Shown: positions 1-21,220 of the stretch, in pieces
How positions within the stretch are numbered: position 1 is the first letter of the stretch
How the letters are laid out: each line of letters begins with the position of its first letter
DNA from: a virus
Direction: 5' to 3' (one strand)
Length of the DNA: 21,488 nt
IMG/VR virus record: IMGVR_UViG_3300044613_001740
Span: 1-21,488 of that record
Position numbers and translations under genes: made by a program
The notes under the pieces: model-generated
The model's input: only the letters and a program-made list of their open reading frames with translations
What the model was told of the DNA's origin: nothing
Databases searched by the model: none

Positions 1-807
1 GCCCGTAGCACCAGTAGGACTTGAACCTTGAGCACCTTGAGAACCTTGAGGACCTTGAGCACCTTGAGCGCCCGTAGCACCAGTAGGACTTGAACCTTGA
101 GCACCTTGAGAACCTTGAGCTCCAGCTGGACCGGTATTACCTTTATCACCTTGAGGACTTGCACCTTGAGCACCTTGAGCACCGGTAGCACCTTGTGGGC
201 CAGTAGCACCTTGTGGACTTGCACCTTGAGCACCTTGAGCACCTTGAGGACCTTGAGCACCTTGAGCGCCAGTAGCACCTTGTGGACTTGCACCTTGAGC
301 TCCAGTAGCACCTTGAGGACCTTGAGCGCCTTGAGCTCCCGTAGCGCCGGTAGGACTTGCACCTTGAGGACCTTGAGGACCTTGAGGACCTTGAGCACCT
401 TGAGCGCCCGTAGCACCTTGTGGACTTGCACCTTGAGCACCTTGAGCACCTTGATTACCTTGAGGACCGGTAGCACCTTGAGGACTTGAACCTTGAGCAC
501 CTTGAGAACCTTGAGGACCTTGAGCACCTTGAGCGCCCGTAGCACCAGTAGGACTTGAACCTTGAGCACCTTGAGAACCTTGAGCTCCAGCCGGGCCGGT
601 ATTACCTTTATCACCTTGAGGACTTGCACCTTGAGCGCCTTGAGAACCCACAGCACCTTGAGCACCTTGAGCACCTGTAATACTTGAACCTTGTGGACCT
701 TTAGCACCTTGAGCACCTTGAGAACCTTGAGCACCTTGATTATTAACACCTTGAGCACCTTGAGCACCTTGAGCGCCGGTTGGACCTTGAGGACCAGTTG
801 GGCCTGT
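1..807 (-). repeat. Gly-X-Y coding repeat tract
   Basis: The tract is built of 9-bp units (accttgagc and variants on the plus strand, encoding GAQ/GPQ/GSQ triplets). It contains a longer-range duplication: positions 16-171 and 481-636 are the same 156-bp block with two mismatches by eye, offset 465 bp (155 codons, so in frame). This points to recent expansion by slippage or unequal recombination. Plus-strand open frames here are by-products of the repeat. Confidence 0.9.
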
Positions 808-1203
808 ATTATGAAAAACTAACTGACCTACATAGTAATTGTGGTCATGTTCTACTTCTATTGAAAGAAATTCAGTTGGTTCTTCTACCAATAAAATAGA
901 AAGTATTTCTACTCTATTATGAAGAATTGTTTTATTAGAATATGCATTAATTGGTGAAACCCACTCACCCATTAAGGTAAGTAGTTTAGAATCTATGGAT
1001 GTTTTTATTTCAGTTCCATCTGAAAGTTGTAAAACAATATGATTCTCTAAAATTCGTTTGTAGGAAGATATAACTTTATTATCTCTATCATAACCTGTTG
1101 ATAAATTATAACCTCTTACAATATCACCAACTTTTATGTTAGAAATAGGAGCAATAACTTCATTTATTTCAAGTAAAGTATCTTTATGTAAACCATGTAT
1201 CAT
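1..1203 (-). CDS. Collagen-like tail fibre with N-terminal Hint (intein-like) domain, partial at left edge
   Basis: The frame is open from an ATG at 1203 to the window edge (about 401 residues visible). Residues 4-132 form a Hint domain (separate entry). From Thr133 onward the protein is almost pure Gly-X-Y ([12 protein letters not shown]), broken at intervals by five-residue units such as GASPQ and GSSPT, as in phage collagen-like fibres that form trimeric rods. I chose ATG 1203 because AGGA lies 7 nt upstream; an in-frame ATG at 1209 has no room for that site. The upstream gene stops at 1220, so the two are probably co-transcribed. The role in host contact is inferred from the repeat type and from neighbouring fibre genes. 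The receptor-binding end is outside the window. Confidence 0.85.
808..1194 (-). other. Hint/intein-like autoprocessing domain, N-terminal half degenerate
   Basis: About 129 residues at the N-terminus of the collagen-like protein. Hint features visible: [10 protein letters not shown] followed by [13 protein letters not shown] (block A region), [15 protein letters not shown] then GEWVSPINA (block B region), and [15 protein letters not shown] plus LVFHN-T (blocks F and G). The first residue, normally Cys or Ser, is Gly4, and the block B TxxH His appears to be Asp. The block F His, the penultimate His131, terminal Asn132 and +1 Thr133 are all present. Known chemistry: Asn cyclisation cuts at the C-terminal junction. 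Inference: the domain cannot splice but could cut itself off and leave a fibre starting with Thr. There is no homing endonuclease insertion. Confidence 0.75.
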
Positions 1204-1219
1204 TTCCATATCCTAACTA

Positions 1220-2221
1220 TTAATTTTGTAATCTAAATACAACTTGAACAGCATAAAAATCAGAGTCATTTGTATTTTTGTTCAAATATAAAGAAATTCT
1301 ATCATTTGCTGAAAATGCTCCACTTACAGCTCCAAATGTAAATACAACATTTGTACCGGGAGCACCCATTGCTTGAGTTTTAGTATTTGAGGATACACCA
1401 TTTTTATATAATTCTATATCAAAATCATCAGTAGTTGCATTTGGATTTTCAGGAGATACATAAATTTTTTCAATAAATCCATTTGTTGGAGCAGTCCAAA
1501 CTCCCATCGATGCGTCTATTGGCATCAAGTCAGTAGTAGAACTCCAAGGTAAACTACCTTGTGTTAGTGATTTAAAATCAACATAAGTTTGTATAGGAGT
1601 TACAATTCCTTGAGCAACATTAAAACTTCCGGTAATATTAAGATTACCAAGCATAACAACATTAGGCCCAATTCTTAAAGTATTAGTTGGTCCTGGTGAT
1701 ATAAATCTACCAATTGAATATCCATCCGTATAAAAATTAGATAATCTAATAGCCGATTTTGTTTCACCAGTATCTCCAGAAAAAAGTATTCCTTCATTTG
1801 AATCTGCAGTTATTCCTATACGACTTGATGAGTTGGATGAACTCCCACTTATGGATACAAATCCATTTAAACCAACTGAACCTGTTGAATGAAATACACC
1901 ATCTAATACTAAAATACGAGTGGGGGTTCCTGAACCTGATAATTTAAAATTAGGTGAACCTTGAATAGTATTAGAATCACTAAAGAATGCAATTTGAGTG
2001 TTAGATGGCGTTCCGGTTGTATCAACATAACCAGCTCCTTCTAAAGCAGCAATGTCACTTGCGATAGAACTTGAGAATGTAGTAAATCCTGTGGTTGAAC
2101 TAATTACTACTTGTGCGGATGATGTAATAACACCATCACCGATGGTTCTTAAATAGACACCATCATTATTTAATTGAGAGACATTACTGCCACTAACTAT
2201 GACTTTTTTCCAATTCGGCAT
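1220..2221 (-). CDS. Fibre-like virion protein with C1q/jelly-roll-like C-terminus
   Basis: 333 residues. The first 20 or so residues (WKKVIVSGSNVSQLNNDG) closely match the N-terminus of the 301-residue product of 2596-3501, suggesting a shared attachment tag. Next come VITSSAQ and a short helix (SSSIASDIAALEG), also shared with the 301-residue protein. The middle is Ser/Gly-rich beta repeat. The last 120 residues, from about QTYVDF, look like a compact beta sandwich with the alternation typical of C1q/TNF-like fibre heads; this is a fold impression, not a proven family. The gene has its own upstream gap with a candidate promoter and a structured leader. Function in adsorption is inferred. 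Confidence 0.75.
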   Translation of the reverse strand: MPNWKKVIVSGSNVSQLNNDGVYLRTIGDGVITSSAQVVISSTTGFTTFSSSIASDIAALEGAGYVDTTGTPSNTQIAFFSDSNTIQGSPNFKLSGSGTPTRILVLDGVFHSTGSVGLNGFVSISGSSSNSSSRIGITADSNEGILFSGDTGETKSAIRLSNFYTDGYSIGRFISPGPTNTLRIGPNVVMLGNLNITGSFNVAQGIVTPIQTYVDFKSLTQGSLPWSSTTDLMPIDASMGVWTAPTNGFIEKIYVSPENPNATTDDFDIELYKNGVSSNTKTQAMGAPGTNVVFTFGAVSGAFSANDRISLYLNKNTNDSDFYAVQVVFRLQN

Positions 2222-7933: not shown

Positions 7934-8230
7934 TTACCCTTCACGGCGTCTACGAACCCACTCCGCTCTTATAGCAGCGTTTCGTTTTTCTCTTTTTACT
8001 GTGGTTGGTTTTTTGTATTCTTTATTATCACGAATATCGTCTAAAACTCCACTATCTTTCATAATGCGTTTCCACGCTCTAAGAGCAGCTTCTACATTTC
8101 CATTAATAACTTTTACACCATGTGCGTGCCCATAAAGATACATTTCTTGGCGTGGTGGTTTTTTCTTTTTATCGTTGTTACGATTATTTCTATCGTTGTT
8201 ACGATTTTGGTTTTTATTGTTTTCTTGCAT
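7934..8230 (-). CDS. bS21-like ribosomal protein
   Basis: 98 residues. Residues from about 38 onward match bacterial ribosomal protein bS21 closely: VEAALRAWKRIMKDSGVL, then an acidic/basic step, YKKPTTVKREKRNAA, and an Arg-rich end. The KPTT-K block is the family hallmark. The N-terminal 36 residues are an Asn/Lys-rich low-complexity extension absent from cellular bS21 (about 64-71 residues). Phage-encoded bS21 is known in several large phages and is thought to enter host ribosomes. In Flavobacteriia, bS21 helps mask the anti-Shine-Dalgarno sequence, so a phage version could alter translation preference; that is inference. It lies between the 128-residue gene and gp22. Confidence 0.88.
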   Translation of the reverse strand: MQENNKNQNRNNDRNNRNNDKKKKPPRQEMYLYGHAHGVKVINGNVEAALRAWKRIMKDSGVLDDIRDNKEYKKPTTVKREKRNAAIRAEWVRRRREG

Positions 8231-8239
8231 AACTTTTAA

Positions 8240-8626
8240 TTAATATATAGGCCCTCTATTTCCTTTTTTCATAGAAATTGCCCATTTTTGTAACATTTTT
8301 TTTATATCAGATGGAAGTTGTTTATCATGAATTTTTATATCACCATTATTACTAATGTGTGCAATGGTTTTATAAGAATCGTTTTCTTCTTCGGCTCTAT
8401 TCCAAACAGTTAACCCATTACCCATATATCCAGAACCAATATCATATTTTTTACCTTCATATATATTTGATTCCGTTAAAATATCCAATCCATCTTTAAA
8501 GTCAGACATTAAGTTACCCAATTGTCTTTGTTTTGATGGTGAAATTTTTTTTATTCTATTCAAGTTTTTTTTAATTAAACTACTAAACTCGAAAGAAATG
8601 CTTTGTATAATGTCATTTTCGTTCAT
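8240..8626 (-). CDS. Conserved hypothetical protein in the prohead core cluster
   Basis: 128 residues. The first half is helical and charged (SFEFSSLIKKNLNRIKKISP). The second half begins YDIGSGYMGNGLTVWNRAEE and continues with IAHISNNGDIKIHDKQLP, a compact alpha/beta module of the sort that recurs in T4-like phage virion proteins. The start codon overlaps the stop of the 553-residue gene as TAATG, implying translational coupling. No catalytic motif. Its place in the gp21-to-gp22 interval suggests a core or internal head protein, but this is inference. Confidence 0.75.
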   Translation of the reverse strand: MNENDIIQSISFEFSSLIKKNLNRIKKISPSKQRQLGNLMSDFKDGLDILTESNIYEGKKYDIGSGYMGNGLTVWNRAEEENDSYKTIAHISNNGDIKIHDKQLPSDIKKMLQKWAISMKKGNRGPIY

Positions 8627-10287
8627 TACTTACCCATTAAAGTTTTTAACAACATTGAAGTTTTATTAATTTTTGACTCAACAAGTTTAAGTTCATTGGG
8701 AGCGTGTTTCATTACATCACCATTTGGTAATTCTATGTTGTAGTATTTTTCATCATCAGCACCATCTTCTTTGTCTAATGATTTAACAACACCAACACCG
8801 CCATGAGACATTTCTACTTTATCACCAACTTTAAAGTGAGATTCGTTTACTGATTCATAAAAAAGATTAGACATCATATCTTTAAGTTTTGGATTTCTAA
8901 AATCACCCTTAAACTTTTCTAATGCTCTTTTTGCTTTTAATGCATTTTTAACAGAAACTACAAAGTATCCAGATTGAACACCACCTTTTTTCTTAGCTGC
9001 TAACATAACTTGTGTTCTTTCACCAGCTCCCATTTGATTACCCATTGGGTCAATTATGGTGTATTTTTCTTCGTTTAGTGATGAAACTGATTCTTTCACA
9101 TATTTCATAGATGAATTAGAACCATCGGTAAAGAATACATTCTCACCATCAATCATTTTTACTTTTCTTTTGAATGGTCCTTTTTTACCTAAAGCTGCTT
9201 CCCAATGAGGGTTATTAACAACCTTAACCATTTTACCAACTTCAATTTCTTCGTTTACTGATTCAAATTTCATATCTTTTGATTGTCCCGGTCTAGCACT
9301 ATGTGTATTGAATAGAACATATTTACCATTATCCAAAATAACAGCAAATCCAAAATCACTATCATACGCCACATTTGTAACTTTTCTACCCTTCATTATG
9401 TAATTAAGGTTTTTATTATCACTAAATACTTCGTTTACTGATTCAAGTTTTAAATTTCTTTGTGCATTAACTAATCCATTAATAATAGATTTTAAACCAC
9501 CTTTAACTCCATCAGTATCTTTAGCTTGAACTCTTTTATCCAAAATTTTGGTGTTCATCTTTAAGAAGTTGATGATTGCGTTTTCAACAGCGTTCCACTT
9601 AATTTCTTCTTCGTTTACTGATTCATCTTTTTTTGCTCTCAATGCAGCCAAGTCAGATGCTTCAATTTCACCATCACCATCAACATCAAGTTTGTGTTGG
9701 TCACCTTTAAGTTCTTCTCTTTTTAACAAAGAAGTTAACTTCATAGATTCGTTAGCAAACTTTTTAGCATTTTCTTTATCTTCAGCATCAACACCGGTTA
9801 CTTTGAATGATTTACCATCAACTTCAAATGAATCTTTATTAGCAGCAATTGCTCTAGCTCTTTCTGCTCCAAACTCATTACCTTCTTTGATTTCGTAATA
9901 TTTACCAAGAACTTCTCCAATTTCATCATAAGCTGATTCTAATCGTTGTTGCAATTGAACTACTTCGTTTATAGAATTTGAGAATACTTTGTAAGATTCG
10001 TTCATTGATTTCATATGTCTTTGAACAGTTACTCTATCAAACCAATCACCAGTTTCTTTAATAGTTAAAGAGCTTGCGCTTTCAACAATATTTTTGATAT
10101 TTTCGTGAATTTCAGACAAATTTCCTTTGTGAGAAATCATTTCACCTAGCTGATGATATGAAGCAACGGCTTCAAGAAATGCTCGTTTTTCTTCGTTGGT
10201 CATTCCTTTTTCATTCTCTTTCTCACCGATGTTCATTCTACGGTAGTCGAGATTTTGAGATTCTTTAATTAAGTTTTTTAATTTCAT
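8626..10287 (-). CDS. Modular ESVNE-punctuated protein, putative prohead-core polyprotein (short form)
   Basis: 553 residues. Begins MKLKNLIKE, short and ending in I-x-E like a capsid-targeting leader. Modules in order: helical region 10-108 ending SINE; helix to 135 (IKE); EGNEF module 136 to about 185 (FEVDGKSFKVTG); an EF-hand/dockerin-like loop DVDGDGEIEASD at 201-212; then segments ending at Glu226, Glu286, Glu346, Glu406 and Glu482, each closed by ESVNE or ESVSSLNE. The segments 227-286, 287-346 and 347-406 are each exactly 60 residues, without obvious mutual similarity. Residues 347-406 and 483-553 look like small KOW/SH3-type barrels (VGKMVKVV, VGDKVEMSHGGVGVV). ATGA overlap with gp21 implies coupled expression with the protease. 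GGAG precedes the start. Function inferred: processed internal head proteins. Confidence 0.85.
   Translation of the reverse strand: MKLKNLIKESQNLDYRRMNIGEKENEKGMTNEEKRAFLEAVASYHQLGEMISHKGNLSEIHENIKNIVESASSLTIKETGDWFDRVTVQRHMKSMNESYKVFSNSINEVVQLQQRLESAYDEIGEVLGKYYEIKEGNEFGAERARAIAANKDSFEVDGKSFKVTGVDAEDKENAKKFANESMKLTSLLKREELKGDQHKLDVDGDGEIEASDLAALRAKKDESVNEEEIKWNAVENAIINFLKMNTKILDKRVQAKDTDGVKGGLKSIINGLVNAQRNLKLESVNEVFSDNKNLNYIMKGRKVTNVAYDSDFGFAVILDNGKYVLFNTHSARPGQSKDMKFESVNEEIEVGKMVKVVNNPHWEAALGKKGPFKRKVKMIDGENVFFTDGSNSSMKYVKESVSSLNEEKYTIIDPMGNQMGAGERTQVMLAAKKKGGVQSGYFVVSVKNALKAKRALEKFKGDFRNPKLKDMMSNLFYESVNESHFKVGDKVEMSHGGVGVVKSLDKEDGADDEKYYNIELPNGDVMKHAPNELKLVESKINKTSMLLKTLMGK
8842..9624 (-). 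repeat. ESVNE-encoding 15-bp joints, short polyprotein
   Basis: Exact GAATCAGTAAACGAA (coding strand) at plus positions 8842-8856, 9250-9264, 9430-9444 and 9610-9624, plus an expanded version at 9070-9093 (ESVSSLNE). The start points 9070, 9250, 9430 and 9610 are exactly 180 bp apart. The codons are identical in all exact copies, including AAC for Asn in an AT-rich genome. Confidence 0.92.
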
Positions 10288-16986: not shown

Positions 16987-17934
16987 TTAATTATTATAGT
17001 TTGGAACTTTTAGTTTAGATTTTAAGGTATTAAATATAAGTTTGGATGAGTCCCACATTCCAAACGATTGTAATAATGATTTTCCGTTTTCAGTTATTTG
17101 GTGATATGCATCTTTATAAAAGTGATTATCAACTTCATTTACATAATTTTTTGCACCCCAAAGATGATAAACATATTCGTCAAGATTTGTGTCTAATTCA
17201 GAGTCGAGGTTTTTGTAATTATAGAATTTACTAAAACTAAATACGGATTTGGATATACAATTAGAAATAAAATTTGGATTCATTTCTTCTTTATATTTTA
17301 AAATTAAAGCTGATAAAAGGTATTGTTCTGCAAATGTCTGCATTCCGCTATTTGCTATGTATGTCGAATCTTCAAATGTATAATCACCACTATTATTTAA
17401 AACAAAATCAAAATATGTATCTGCATAATAATTTTTAAACTGCATATCATTAAATGATATAACAGAGACATTTATAGGTAATGCTGATTTGAAATATATT
17501 TTTAAATTACCCCAATCCCAATTTGGTGGTAAAGTAACTTCGTGTGGTCTTAAATATCCAGCTTGAAATTCTTTATGTAAATATGATATAGAATTATTTG
17601 AAAATTCAGATATGGGTGTATGTAAAACTAAATCGGTATCAATTATGGTAAATGGGGTATTTATTTTTTTCATTAACCATAATTTAGGACTTGCCCAAAA
17701 GTTTTTAGATATCATATCACTTGGATAATCATCAAAAACATCAGTAATGACATCATCATAAAATTTTAAAATTCCTATTTTTTTATAAAAAGAAAGACTT
17801 TCGTTATTGGTGGCAAATGTAATTGGAATTTTTGGATTTCTATATTTGTGATTTAATACAGAAATTAATTGAACTAATAATTCAAGTTCACTTGGAGGCG
17901 TTTCTCCAATAATGTATGTATGATACAATTTCAT
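16987..17934 (-). CDS. Glycosyltransferase-like protein (GT-A type, DxD)
   Basis: 315 residues. MKLYHTYIIGETPPSELELL opens a Rossmann-like N-terminus. FTIIDTDLVLHTP has a DxD motif (Asp99, Asp101) expected to hold the metal and sugar nucleotide. The C-terminal YVYHLWGAKNY resembles the His-containing end of bacterial and viral GT-A enzymes. There is no signal peptide. It interrupts a cluster of virion genes and is even more AT-rich than its neighbours, suggesting separate acquisition. Possible targets are virion proteins, modified DNA bases or host surface glycans; the sequence does not decide. Family membership is by motif, not by a search. Confidence 0.68.
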   Translation of the reverse strand: MKLYHTYIIGETPPSELELLVQLISVLNHKYRNPKIPITFATNNESLSFYKKIGILKFYDDVITDVFDDYPSDMISKNFWASPKLWLMKKINTPFTIIDTDLVLHTPISEFSNNSISYLHKEFQAGYLRPHEVTLPPNWDWGNLKIYFKSALPINVSVISFNDMQFKNYYADTYFDFVLNNSGDYTFEDSTYIANSGMQTFAEQYLLSALILKYKEEMNPNFISNCISKSVFSFSKFYNYKNLDSELDTNLDEYVYHLWGAKNYVNEVDNHFYKDAYHQITENGKSLLQSFGMWDSSKLIFNTLKSKLKVPNYNN

Positions 17935-18697: not shown

Positions 18698-21220
18698 TTA
18701 TTTCAAACCTTCCATCTTACTTCTATTTTTATAGACACCAGCTAACCACTTCATTGATTCTTTAGTTTTTGGAAAATCTTTGTATTCTTTATAAAATTGA
18801 ATTACAAAATCTTTAAAATCTTTTGCTTCTTGTGCAATAATATCAATATCACTCAATGAAGCTTCGTTTACTGATTCAAATTTGAGTTTATTAAGGTTTA
18901 TATTACCGATAGTTCTTTGGAATAAGTATCCATTTTGAAATTCAGCATGGCTTCCACCTCTAAAGAAAAACTCACCCTTACCGTATGCAGTATCCAAACT
19001 TTTTTGTATATGATTTACTATTTTGTTAGTTCCTATTTTTCTAACTGCAATACTTGCTGCCTTTTTATCCTTAAAAGAAAACAATATTTTTCCATTTGTC
19101 TCACTTATATCAAAATCTATACCTAATATATTTGCACGATTAGTATTTTCGTTTACTGATTCAACTAAATCACTTTTGTAATTTTTATTTACAAACTGAA
19201 CTAAACTTTGTGCATATTTGCCAGTAATTTTACCTACCATCTTAACTCCATTTGGAGTATGGGTATACATTTCTTGTGAACCAATTCCGGCAGTTTTTAA
19301 TACCTTACCATCCGTATTTAAGTTTCTACCTTCTAAAGGTTTTTTATCAAAAAATGCCTTAACTACTTTCGTATCGGCTGGAAGTAGAGCTTCGTTTACT
19401 GATTCTCCGATTGTGGTCACTTTCCAATAGTATCCTTTATTCTTTTCTGATGCTGATAATCTTTTATTTAGAGTTTCAACTTCTTTTTCAGCTTCTCTGT
19501 AATTTCTGTCAACCGATAATGTTTTTAAAATTTTATTTTTGTTAGGGTCAAATAATGAAATTTTAACACCTTCGTTTACTGATTCTTTCATTCCAAACTT
19601 GGAAATAATCATTTTTTGGATTTTGTTACCAGGATTCCCAACCATTGCAGTTACAAAATCCATTTTATCTGAAAGTTTACCTTTTTTTAGATATGAGTAT
19701 AGTTTTGTAGAATCTAAATTATTATCATCAATAAACTTTTGAACTCCTTCAGGTCTTGTTGCAGTTAATGAAGCAATTGCTACTGCCCATTTTGTTTGGC
19801 TTGGCACTGCTTCGTTTACGGATTCTTTAATACCACCCTTGTTGATATTTGATATCCAACCATTTTTAATGAACCAATCCATTTTTTCTTCAAATGATGG
19901 GTTAGTCTTTTTAGCCCACATATTATACTCAACTTTTTTGTTGAATTGTTTTTGATTTTTAAGAATAGCACTTACTACTTTGTCTTTGTTAGTATCACCT
20001 TTAGATACATCTTTCATACCTAACTTTGCCCAAGTTTTGTAATCTACAAAATAAGCTGAATCATCTTCTTTATAGTATCCAAAGTGAAGTTTACCTTTAC
20101 CATCAGAAAATACAGTTTTACCAACAACTGATTTAAAATCTTCGTTTACTGATGGAATTACTTCGTCTTGGTAAAGAACTTTTACATCTTTAAGATTACC
20201 ATTAAATTCACCCTTCATGGTCATAATCGTAACCGTATCACCACTAATTTTTTTTACCATTCCGGTTTTATTTGCAGATTTAAAATGAACAAAATCACCT
20301 ATTTCAAAATCACCTTTGTTGGCTTCGTTTACTTTATTTTCCATCACACCCACAGCAGTATCGCCTACTACGAAATCAGGTTTGGTTGCATATTTTTTAT
20401 TTACAATACCAACTCTATTACCACTCTTATCTTGCACTATATAAATTGGCATTGGTGATGTGGCGAAGATGTATCGTATGCCTGTTTTTTTCAACTCTGA
20501 CCCAATATTCATAAACGAAGACGCTGATTGAACTGCTGACTTAATGGCTTCCATATCCTTTGGTGAAATACGCTCATTCATTGATTTTTTCATTTTAATT
20601 ACCTCTGCAATCGTTTCATCATTTGCCTCTTTAACAGGATACATTTTTCCGTTAAATTCAAATTCGGTTAAACCTTCTTTTCGTGCGTTAAACAAAGCAC
20701 CGGTAAAAGCATTACCCTCTTTAACACTATAAATTTCTTGTTCGTTTTTCATCAAACGATTTTTTGCTAACAAAGAAAGAAACTTAATATCAGCGTCTGC
20801 AATTTGTTGTAATTCATCTTTAGGCAACTTGTCCAACATCGTAATTAAACGATTATACGCTGGACTATTTGGGTTGATTTTATTAATGTCGTTATATGCC
20901 TGCTTTAACATATCAAGGTGGGTTTTATCAAATCTTTCGCTTACTGATTCTGACTTAGTTTTCCAAGTTCCACCTTTTTCTTTATACCACTTAGATGCAA
21001 ATGCGTTAGCATATGCTGATGGGTAAACATCGTATTTAGCTTTTGCAGCTGATTTTGCTCTACTCCAAAGTGCGGGATTAGTTGGTTCGTTTTCTTCGTT
21101 CATTTCAACTGATTCAGGAACACAATTAGGAACTTCCCTACCACTTTTCATTTTCATTCCTACTTGTTTATACCCATCCCAACATGGACCATTTTCGTTT
21201 ACGAATTTTTTTTTATTCAT
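18698..21220 (-). CDS. Large modular ESVNE-punctuated protein, putative prohead-core polyprotein (long form)
   Basis: 840 residues. Candidate joints end at Glu9 (FVNE), 42 (SVEMNE), 95 (ESVSE), 299 (NKVNE), 360 (PSVNE), 470, 550, 610, 691 and 786 (all ESVNE), giving segments of 33, 53, 204, 61, 110, 80, 60, 81, 95 and 54 residues. Modules include CWDGYKQVGMKMKSG...VPNCVP (10-42), YPSAYANAFASKWYKEKGG (43-95), an EGNAF module flanked by VKE at 168 and 198, and a KOW-like barrel (FEIGDFVHFKSANKTGMVKK, 300-360). The rest are small alpha/beta or helical units I do not recognise. No enzyme motif spans modules. Inference: gp21 cuts after the Glu residues, releasing small proteins inside the head. 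Confidence 0.85.
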   Translation of the reverse strand: MNKKKFVNENGPCWDGYKQVGMKMKSGREVPNCVPESVEMNEENEPTNPALWSRAKSAAKAKYDVYPSAYANAFASKWYKEKGGTWKTKSESVSERFDKTHLDMLKQAYNDINKINPNSPAYNRLITMLDKLPKDELQQIADADIKFLSLLAKNRLMKNEQEIYSVKEGNAFTGALFNARKEGLTEFEFNGKMYPVKEANDETIAEVIKMKKSMNERISPKDMEAIKSAVQSASSFMNIGSELKKTGIRYIFATSPMPIYIVQDKSGNRVGIVNKKYATKPDFVVGDTAVGVMENKVNEANKGDFEIGDFVHFKSANKTGMVKKISGDTVTIMTMKGEFNGNLKDVKVLYQDEVIPSVNEDFKSVVGKTVFSDGKGKLHFGYYKEDDSAYFVDYKTWAKLGMKDVSKGDTNKDKVVSAILKNQKQFNKKVEYNMWAKKTNPSFEEKMDWFIKNGWISNINKGGIKESVNEAVPSQTKWAVAIASLTATRPEGVQKFIDDNNLDSTKLYSYLKKGKLSDKMDFVTAMVGNPGNKIQKMIISKFGMKESVNEGVKISLFDPNKNKILKTLSVDRNYREAEKEVETLNKRLSASEKNKGYYWKVTTIGESVNEALLPADTKVVKAFFDKKPLEGRNLNTDGKVLKTAGIGSQEMYTHTPNGVKMVGKITGKYAQSLVQFVNKNYKSDLVESVNENTNRANILGIDFDISETNGKILFSFKDKKAASIAVRKIGTNKIVNHIQKSLDTAYGKGEFFFRGGSHAEFQNGYLFQRTIGNINLNKLKFESVNEASLSDIDIIAQEAKDFKDFVIQFYKEYKDFPKTKESMKWLAGVYKNRSKMEGLK
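18863..20950 (-). repeat. ESVNE-encoding 15-bp joints, long polyprotein
   Basis: Exact GAATCAGTAAACGAA on the coding strand at plus positions 18863-18877, 19148-19162, 19391-19405 and 19571-19585. Near copies are at 19811-19825 (one mismatch), 20141-20153 (PSVNE), 20324-20338 (NKVNE) and 20936-20950 (ESVSE). The same 15-mer occurs four times in the distant gene at 8626-10287. Confidence 0.92.

Follow-up and report, generated by a model that had tools for sequence, protein, structure and literature searches.

A Hint domain without Cys1 at the head of a collagen-like fibre family in uncultured T4-like phages

Described Hint domains and their relation to collagen and fibre proteins

In inteins, the His residues at F:13 and G:6 assist the cyclisation of Asn, which breaks the C-terminal bond, and when this cyclisation takes place before the branched intermediate has formed, the outcome is C-terminal cleavage without splicing (PMC4031507). 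Class 1 inteins are recognised by Cys or Ser at position 1 together with a block B His, and by a His-Asn end that is followed by Cys, Ser or Thr at +1. Class 2 inteins combine Ala1, Cys+1, a B:10 His, an F:4 Asp and a Ser at G:6 (PMC4031507), and class 3 inteins carry a Trp-Cys-Thr triad at B:12, F:4 and G:5. BIL domains, including BIL2 of Tetrahymena (T. thermophila BUBL1; 6y75, 6tmm) and the C. thermocellum BIL (2lwy), have no homing endonuclease, end in His-Asn and are expected to cleave rather than to splice; type A BIL domains, as described, have an N-terminal thioester and no nucleophile at +1.

Other Hint domains stand next to parts that they could release. Pretoxin HINT (PF07591) lies ahead of such a part, and in several jumbo phage tail proteins (Erwinia phage Y3_110, Yersinia phage fHe-Yen9-02, Alcaligenes phage Afa-NA1 and Erwinia phage pEa_SNUABM_32; our loci L037, L038, L039 and L075) collagen and Hint share one protein, encoded beside tail fibre genes. 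Because these four jumbo phages carry the combination separately from the family described below, Hint and collagen recur together in phage tails. The two cases differ in domain order and in likely chemistry, however, as the jumbo phage Hint is C-terminal, retains Cys1 and ends in His-Asn plus a tail of ~10 residues. The S74-family intramolecular chaperones of phage tail spikes and fibres are likewise self-removing, but the analogy is functional only: their fold is unrelated, their chemistry is Ser-Lys, and they act on domains upstream of themselves (PMC12403621, PMC7824862). No published Hint-capped collagen fibre was found in the open-licence literature.

Location, fold and family of the phage domain

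The window, i.e., the whole stretch analysed, comprises the 21,488 nucleotides of IMG/VR record IMGVR_UViG_3300044613_001740. A complete Hint (hedgehog/intein) domain of 132 residues, joined to collagen repeats, is encoded at 808-1203 on the minus strand, exactly where a preliminary description had placed it: His131-Asn132 ends at 808, and Thr133 and the GXY repeats then extend to the window edge (Table 1). An AGGA lies 7 nt upstream of the ATG at 1203, and the alternative ATG at 1209 is ATA in the closest relative (L010, on the same contig as L002); the fibre therefore likely starts at 1203.

Table 1. Features of the Hint-headed fibre gene in the window (residues counted from the Met at 1203)
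Feature	Positions	Strand	Remark
Hint domain with N-terminal stub, M1 to N132	808..1203	-	Gly4 is intein position 1; Asn132 is the last intein residue
N-terminal stub Met-Ile-His	1195..1203	-	Ile-His at -2/-1 invariant, 18/18 rows
Gly4, at the intein Cys1 position	1192..1194	-	Gly, Ala or Ser in all rows; Cys in none
Ser72, where the block B catalytic His (B:10) would stand	988..990	-	S/A/V/I/L across the family
Ser114, position 4 of block F (F:4; Asp as a rule, Cys in class 3 inteins)	862..864	-	invariant Ser (PMC4031507)
His121, block F His (F:13)	841..843	-	invariant
His131-Asn132, block G His-Asn, the pair that cuts the C-terminal bond in inteins	808..813	-	invariant
Thr133 (+1), predicted new fibre N-terminus	805..807	-	invariant
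Collagen-like GXY repeats of the fibre, running off the window edge	1..807	-	Pfam Collagen 3.7e-24
Upstream structural (fibre-like) gene, 10 bp ahead	1220..2221	-	relatives have a gene with a comparable C-terminal end ahead of the fibre

The proposal that a Hint domain forms the N-terminus of a collagen-like fibre was borne out by several comparisons. As a single sequence, the window protein matched PT-HINT (7.7e-4) and Intein_splicing (2e-3) in Pfam below their curated cut-offs; Pretoxin HINT, its best single Pfam match, reached 20.2-20.4 bits against a gathering cut-off of 27.7, and a collagen fibre rather than a toxin lies behind the Hint domain. No match to the Hint domain was found in PHROGs. 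Intein_splicing was matched by 12 of 16 family members, and a profile of 16 family rows recovered inteins and BIL domains among PDB sequences, namely BIL2 (4e-8), the gp41-1 intein (9e-8) and CthBIL (2e-6). The AlphaFold2 model of the domain (pLDDT 91.4, pTM 0.84) had the T. thermophila BIL2 intein-like domain as its best solved structural match (TM 0.86, Z 19.8), with the C. thermocellum BIL at Z 18.2 and with inteins and hedgehog ranking below BIL2 (1at0, Z 15.8). Modelled fold and family profile both indicate, beyond chance, that the domain belongs to the Hint superfamily. A split-intein half was ruled out, the modelled fold being complete.

Counting the window, 18 distinct homologues were collected from viral contigs, down to 35% identity. 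Viral-contig scans gave 16 distinct rows (window included), while the two more distant ones were reached via the upstream gene (L082-L084) and via a scan for HNTGPTG (L157), neither of these routes using the Hint N-terminus; the other new contigs from the latter scan were chance matches. All 18 rows share one architecture, in which a stub of 3-5 residues ending in Ile-His is followed by a complete Hint domain and then by collagen; in the window this negligible N-extein is Met-Ile-His. Complete fibres in the first set of relatives are 942-1502 aa long and end in a related C-terminal domain of ~40 residues. With dN/dS of 0.12-0.23 in five pairs of members, the coding sequences indicate purifying selection on the family. 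Homologues with Cys1 or a longer N-extein, which the preliminary description had proposed to look for, did not emerge: none of the 18 rows has either (two have Ser1), no row has a longer conserved N-extein, and in the relatives read the start codon and ribosome-binding site lie at the stub. No bacterial homologue or donor was found among bacterial genome contigs at the patterns used, and the isolated phages searched yielded only inteins in enzymes or terminases and the C-terminal Hint of the jumbo phage tail proteins. L019, L020, L022, L023, L025, L027 and L029 have a Cys-rich insert in the Hint domain (e.g., CASDDCKC, CGCGDCKC), possibly a metal-binding loop.

The family belongs to uncultured T4-like phages with very long collagen-like fibres. 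The genome sampled by the window is that of a T4-like myovirus, with a gp23-like major capsid protein, portal, prohead protease, terminase and PhoH, and the isolated phages whose capsid proteins come closest to its own are Microcystis phage Mel-JY01 (58%) and Flavobacterium phage immuto (54%). Elsewhere in the window, a phage-borne gene for ribosomal protein bS21 lies at 7934-8230 on the minus strand (Pfam 7e-12), and the related phage Mel-JY01 also has an annotated S21. Large proteins at 18698-21220 and at 8626-10287 (minus strand) contain 6 and 4 copies, respectively, of ESVNE-type motifs between unlike segments, and at these motifs the prohead protease perhaps cuts a polyprotein. The protein at 16987-17934 (minus strand) has a weak match to DUF6734 (2.1e-5, under the cut-off) and is possibly glycosyltransferase-like.

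Lost and retained catalytic residues and their interpretation

The catalytic residues of the domain divide into a lost and a retained set. The reported change of Cys1 to Gly is correct (Gly4), and Cys is absent at position 1 throughout the family, which has Gly in 13 rows, Ala in three and Ser in two (L082 and L157); the Ala rows and the Ser rows each form a supported group, and all three groups retain the C-side residues. The block B His, described earlier as changed to Asp, is indeed missing in every row, but alignments to 2lwy, 6y75 and gp41-1 put Ser72 in its place, Asp71 standing one residue ahead as in the Asp-His of CthBIL. At F:4, where Asp is usual, all rows have Ser (Ser114, a residue that the preliminary description did not mention). 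The remaining block F His and His-Asn-Thr that it did report are invariant, F:13 His, G:6 His, G:7 Asn and +1 Thr being found in 18/18 rows, while G:5 is F/L/M/V/I and Trp is absent from B:12. Because none of the patterns that retrieved the first 16 rows contained His-Asn-Thr, the invariance of this motif is not a search artefact (L157, the only row found through it, excepted), whereas Ile-His and Asp-His were in the patterns, so that their invariance weighs less, except in L082. Thr occupies +1 in 18/18 rows but only 21% of the positions ahead of Gly in the rest of the collagen, an excess that is an indication and not a probability because the rows are related.

Judged on these residues, the window domain lacks defining features of class 1, 2 and 3 inteins and of BIL domains as described. 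It has the class 1 end (HN|T in 18/18), but position 1 is Gly or Ala in 16 of 18 rows and the B:10 His is present in 0/18. With class 2 and class 3 inteins (MchDnaB, MsmDnaB) it shares the fold and the absence of Cys1, and some rows have Ala at position 1 as in class 2, but the N-extein is only 3-5 residues long; Thr+1, the missing B:10 His, Ser at F:4 and His at G:6 differ from class 2, and the class 3 triad is lacking. Like BIL domains it has no homing endonuclease and ends in His-Asn, with cleavage expected over splicing, but the type A arrangement is reversed, Cys1 being absent and a +1 Thr invariant.

Since Cys1, the block B His and the block F Asp have all been replaced, neither N-terminal activation nor splicing would be expected, and with the C-terminal active site intact, C-terminal self-cleavage is the natural prediction. 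The retained set is C-terminal and the lost set N-terminal, which makes removal of the cap by itself the most economical reading. We therefore lean, by a narrow measure, towards a self-processing Hint domain adapted to C-terminal cleavage alone, which would remove itself as an N-terminal cap; that cleavage occurs, and what it serves, we infer. After folding of the chain, His121 and His131 would promote cyclisation of Asn132, breaking the Asn132-Thr133 bond; the freed cap would carry the 3-residue stub and a C-terminal succinimide, and the released collagen-like fibre would start with Thr-Gly-Pro. Until then, the cap would likely keep the fibre chains soluble or in register, or block premature assembly. 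One precedent counts against this reading, as mutation of the F:4 Asp and B:10 His of a class 2 intein reduced C-terminal cleavage as well (PMC4031507).

The gene next door bears on whether any chemistry takes place. Wherever the sequence of a relative extends beyond the fibre gene, a second collagen fibre is encoded directly after it (L041-L044, L049-L052, L057, L058, L060-L062, L152, L157). The first 160-210 residues of this second protein close with His-Asn, after which comes P, A, F, V, S or N, and they have Asp in place of the block F His. Profile comparison of this N-terminus with the Hint family gave 69%, and its model had Hint proteins as best matches (E 9e-3); since model confidence is low (pLDDT 62), we term it Hint-like only, although the data suggest a sister Hint more decayed than the first. 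A Hint-like domain can thus persist without the block F His, and the second fibre, in this respect and in the residues after its His-Asn, favours a structural cap, i.e., a stable Hint fold that serves the collagen fibre as an N-terminal anchor or nucleus and remains attached in the virion, with His and Asn kept for packing. The loss of the N-side catalytic residues agrees with such a cap, as does the fact that the fibre has no other N-terminal attachment domain; a cleaved fibre would have no folded one at all, which counts against cleavage. Yet across the 18 rows, with identities as low as 35% and differences at many other positions, it is exactly the C-side catalytic set and the +1 Thr that are invariant, and His-Asn is retained in the neighbouring family too, and we consider a cap without chemistry unlikely, if a serious contender.

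C-terminal cleavage alone leaves two features unexplained, the invariant Ile-His before the domain and the invariant Thr after it. Together with the invariant Ser at F:4 and the small residue at position 1 (including Ser in L082 and L157), these are what an unusual form of splicing would draw upon: Ser F:4 (class-3-like) or Thr+1 (class-2-like) would attack the His-Gly/Ala/Ser bond, and MxxIH would be ligated to Thr+1, giving MxxIH-TGP fibres. Class 2 and class 3 inteins do splice without Cys1 (PMC4031507), but the triad of the latter (Trp B:12, Cys F:4, Thr G:5) is absent here, the +1 residue used by known class 2 inteins is Cys, there is no B:10 His, and an extein of 3-5 residues offers little reason to splice; we regard this reading as distinctly improbable. 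Marginally more doubtful is a new splicing or processing class, in which Ser F:4, Thr+1 and Asn would process both ends without Cys1 or a block B His, grafting the MxxIH stub onto each collagen chain, in one member of a tandem pair of Hint-headed fibres.

The preliminary description also entertained the remnant of an intein that had lost its N-extein gene, for which the missing Cys1 and block B His could speak. Such a broken-intein relic, now without function, is contradicted by the 18 conserved rows, which share start, end and fusion, and by the dN/dS values that point to purifying selection; we reject it as very improbable indeed.

Implications for fibre assembly in T4-like phages

If C-terminal cleavage does occur, the family would represent a conserved, naturally occurring Hint domain that gave up the splicing half of its chemistry and retained C-terminal cleavage alone. 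Such forms are otherwise laboratory products, obtained by mutation of Cys1, and members of the family would be ready-made C-cleaving domains. The family would also provide a collagen fibre with an N-terminal cap that removes itself, in contrast to the C-terminal chaperones that are the self-removing caps known from phage fibres. It makes the question of how phages build collagen fibres of >1000 residues inside bacteria directly testable.
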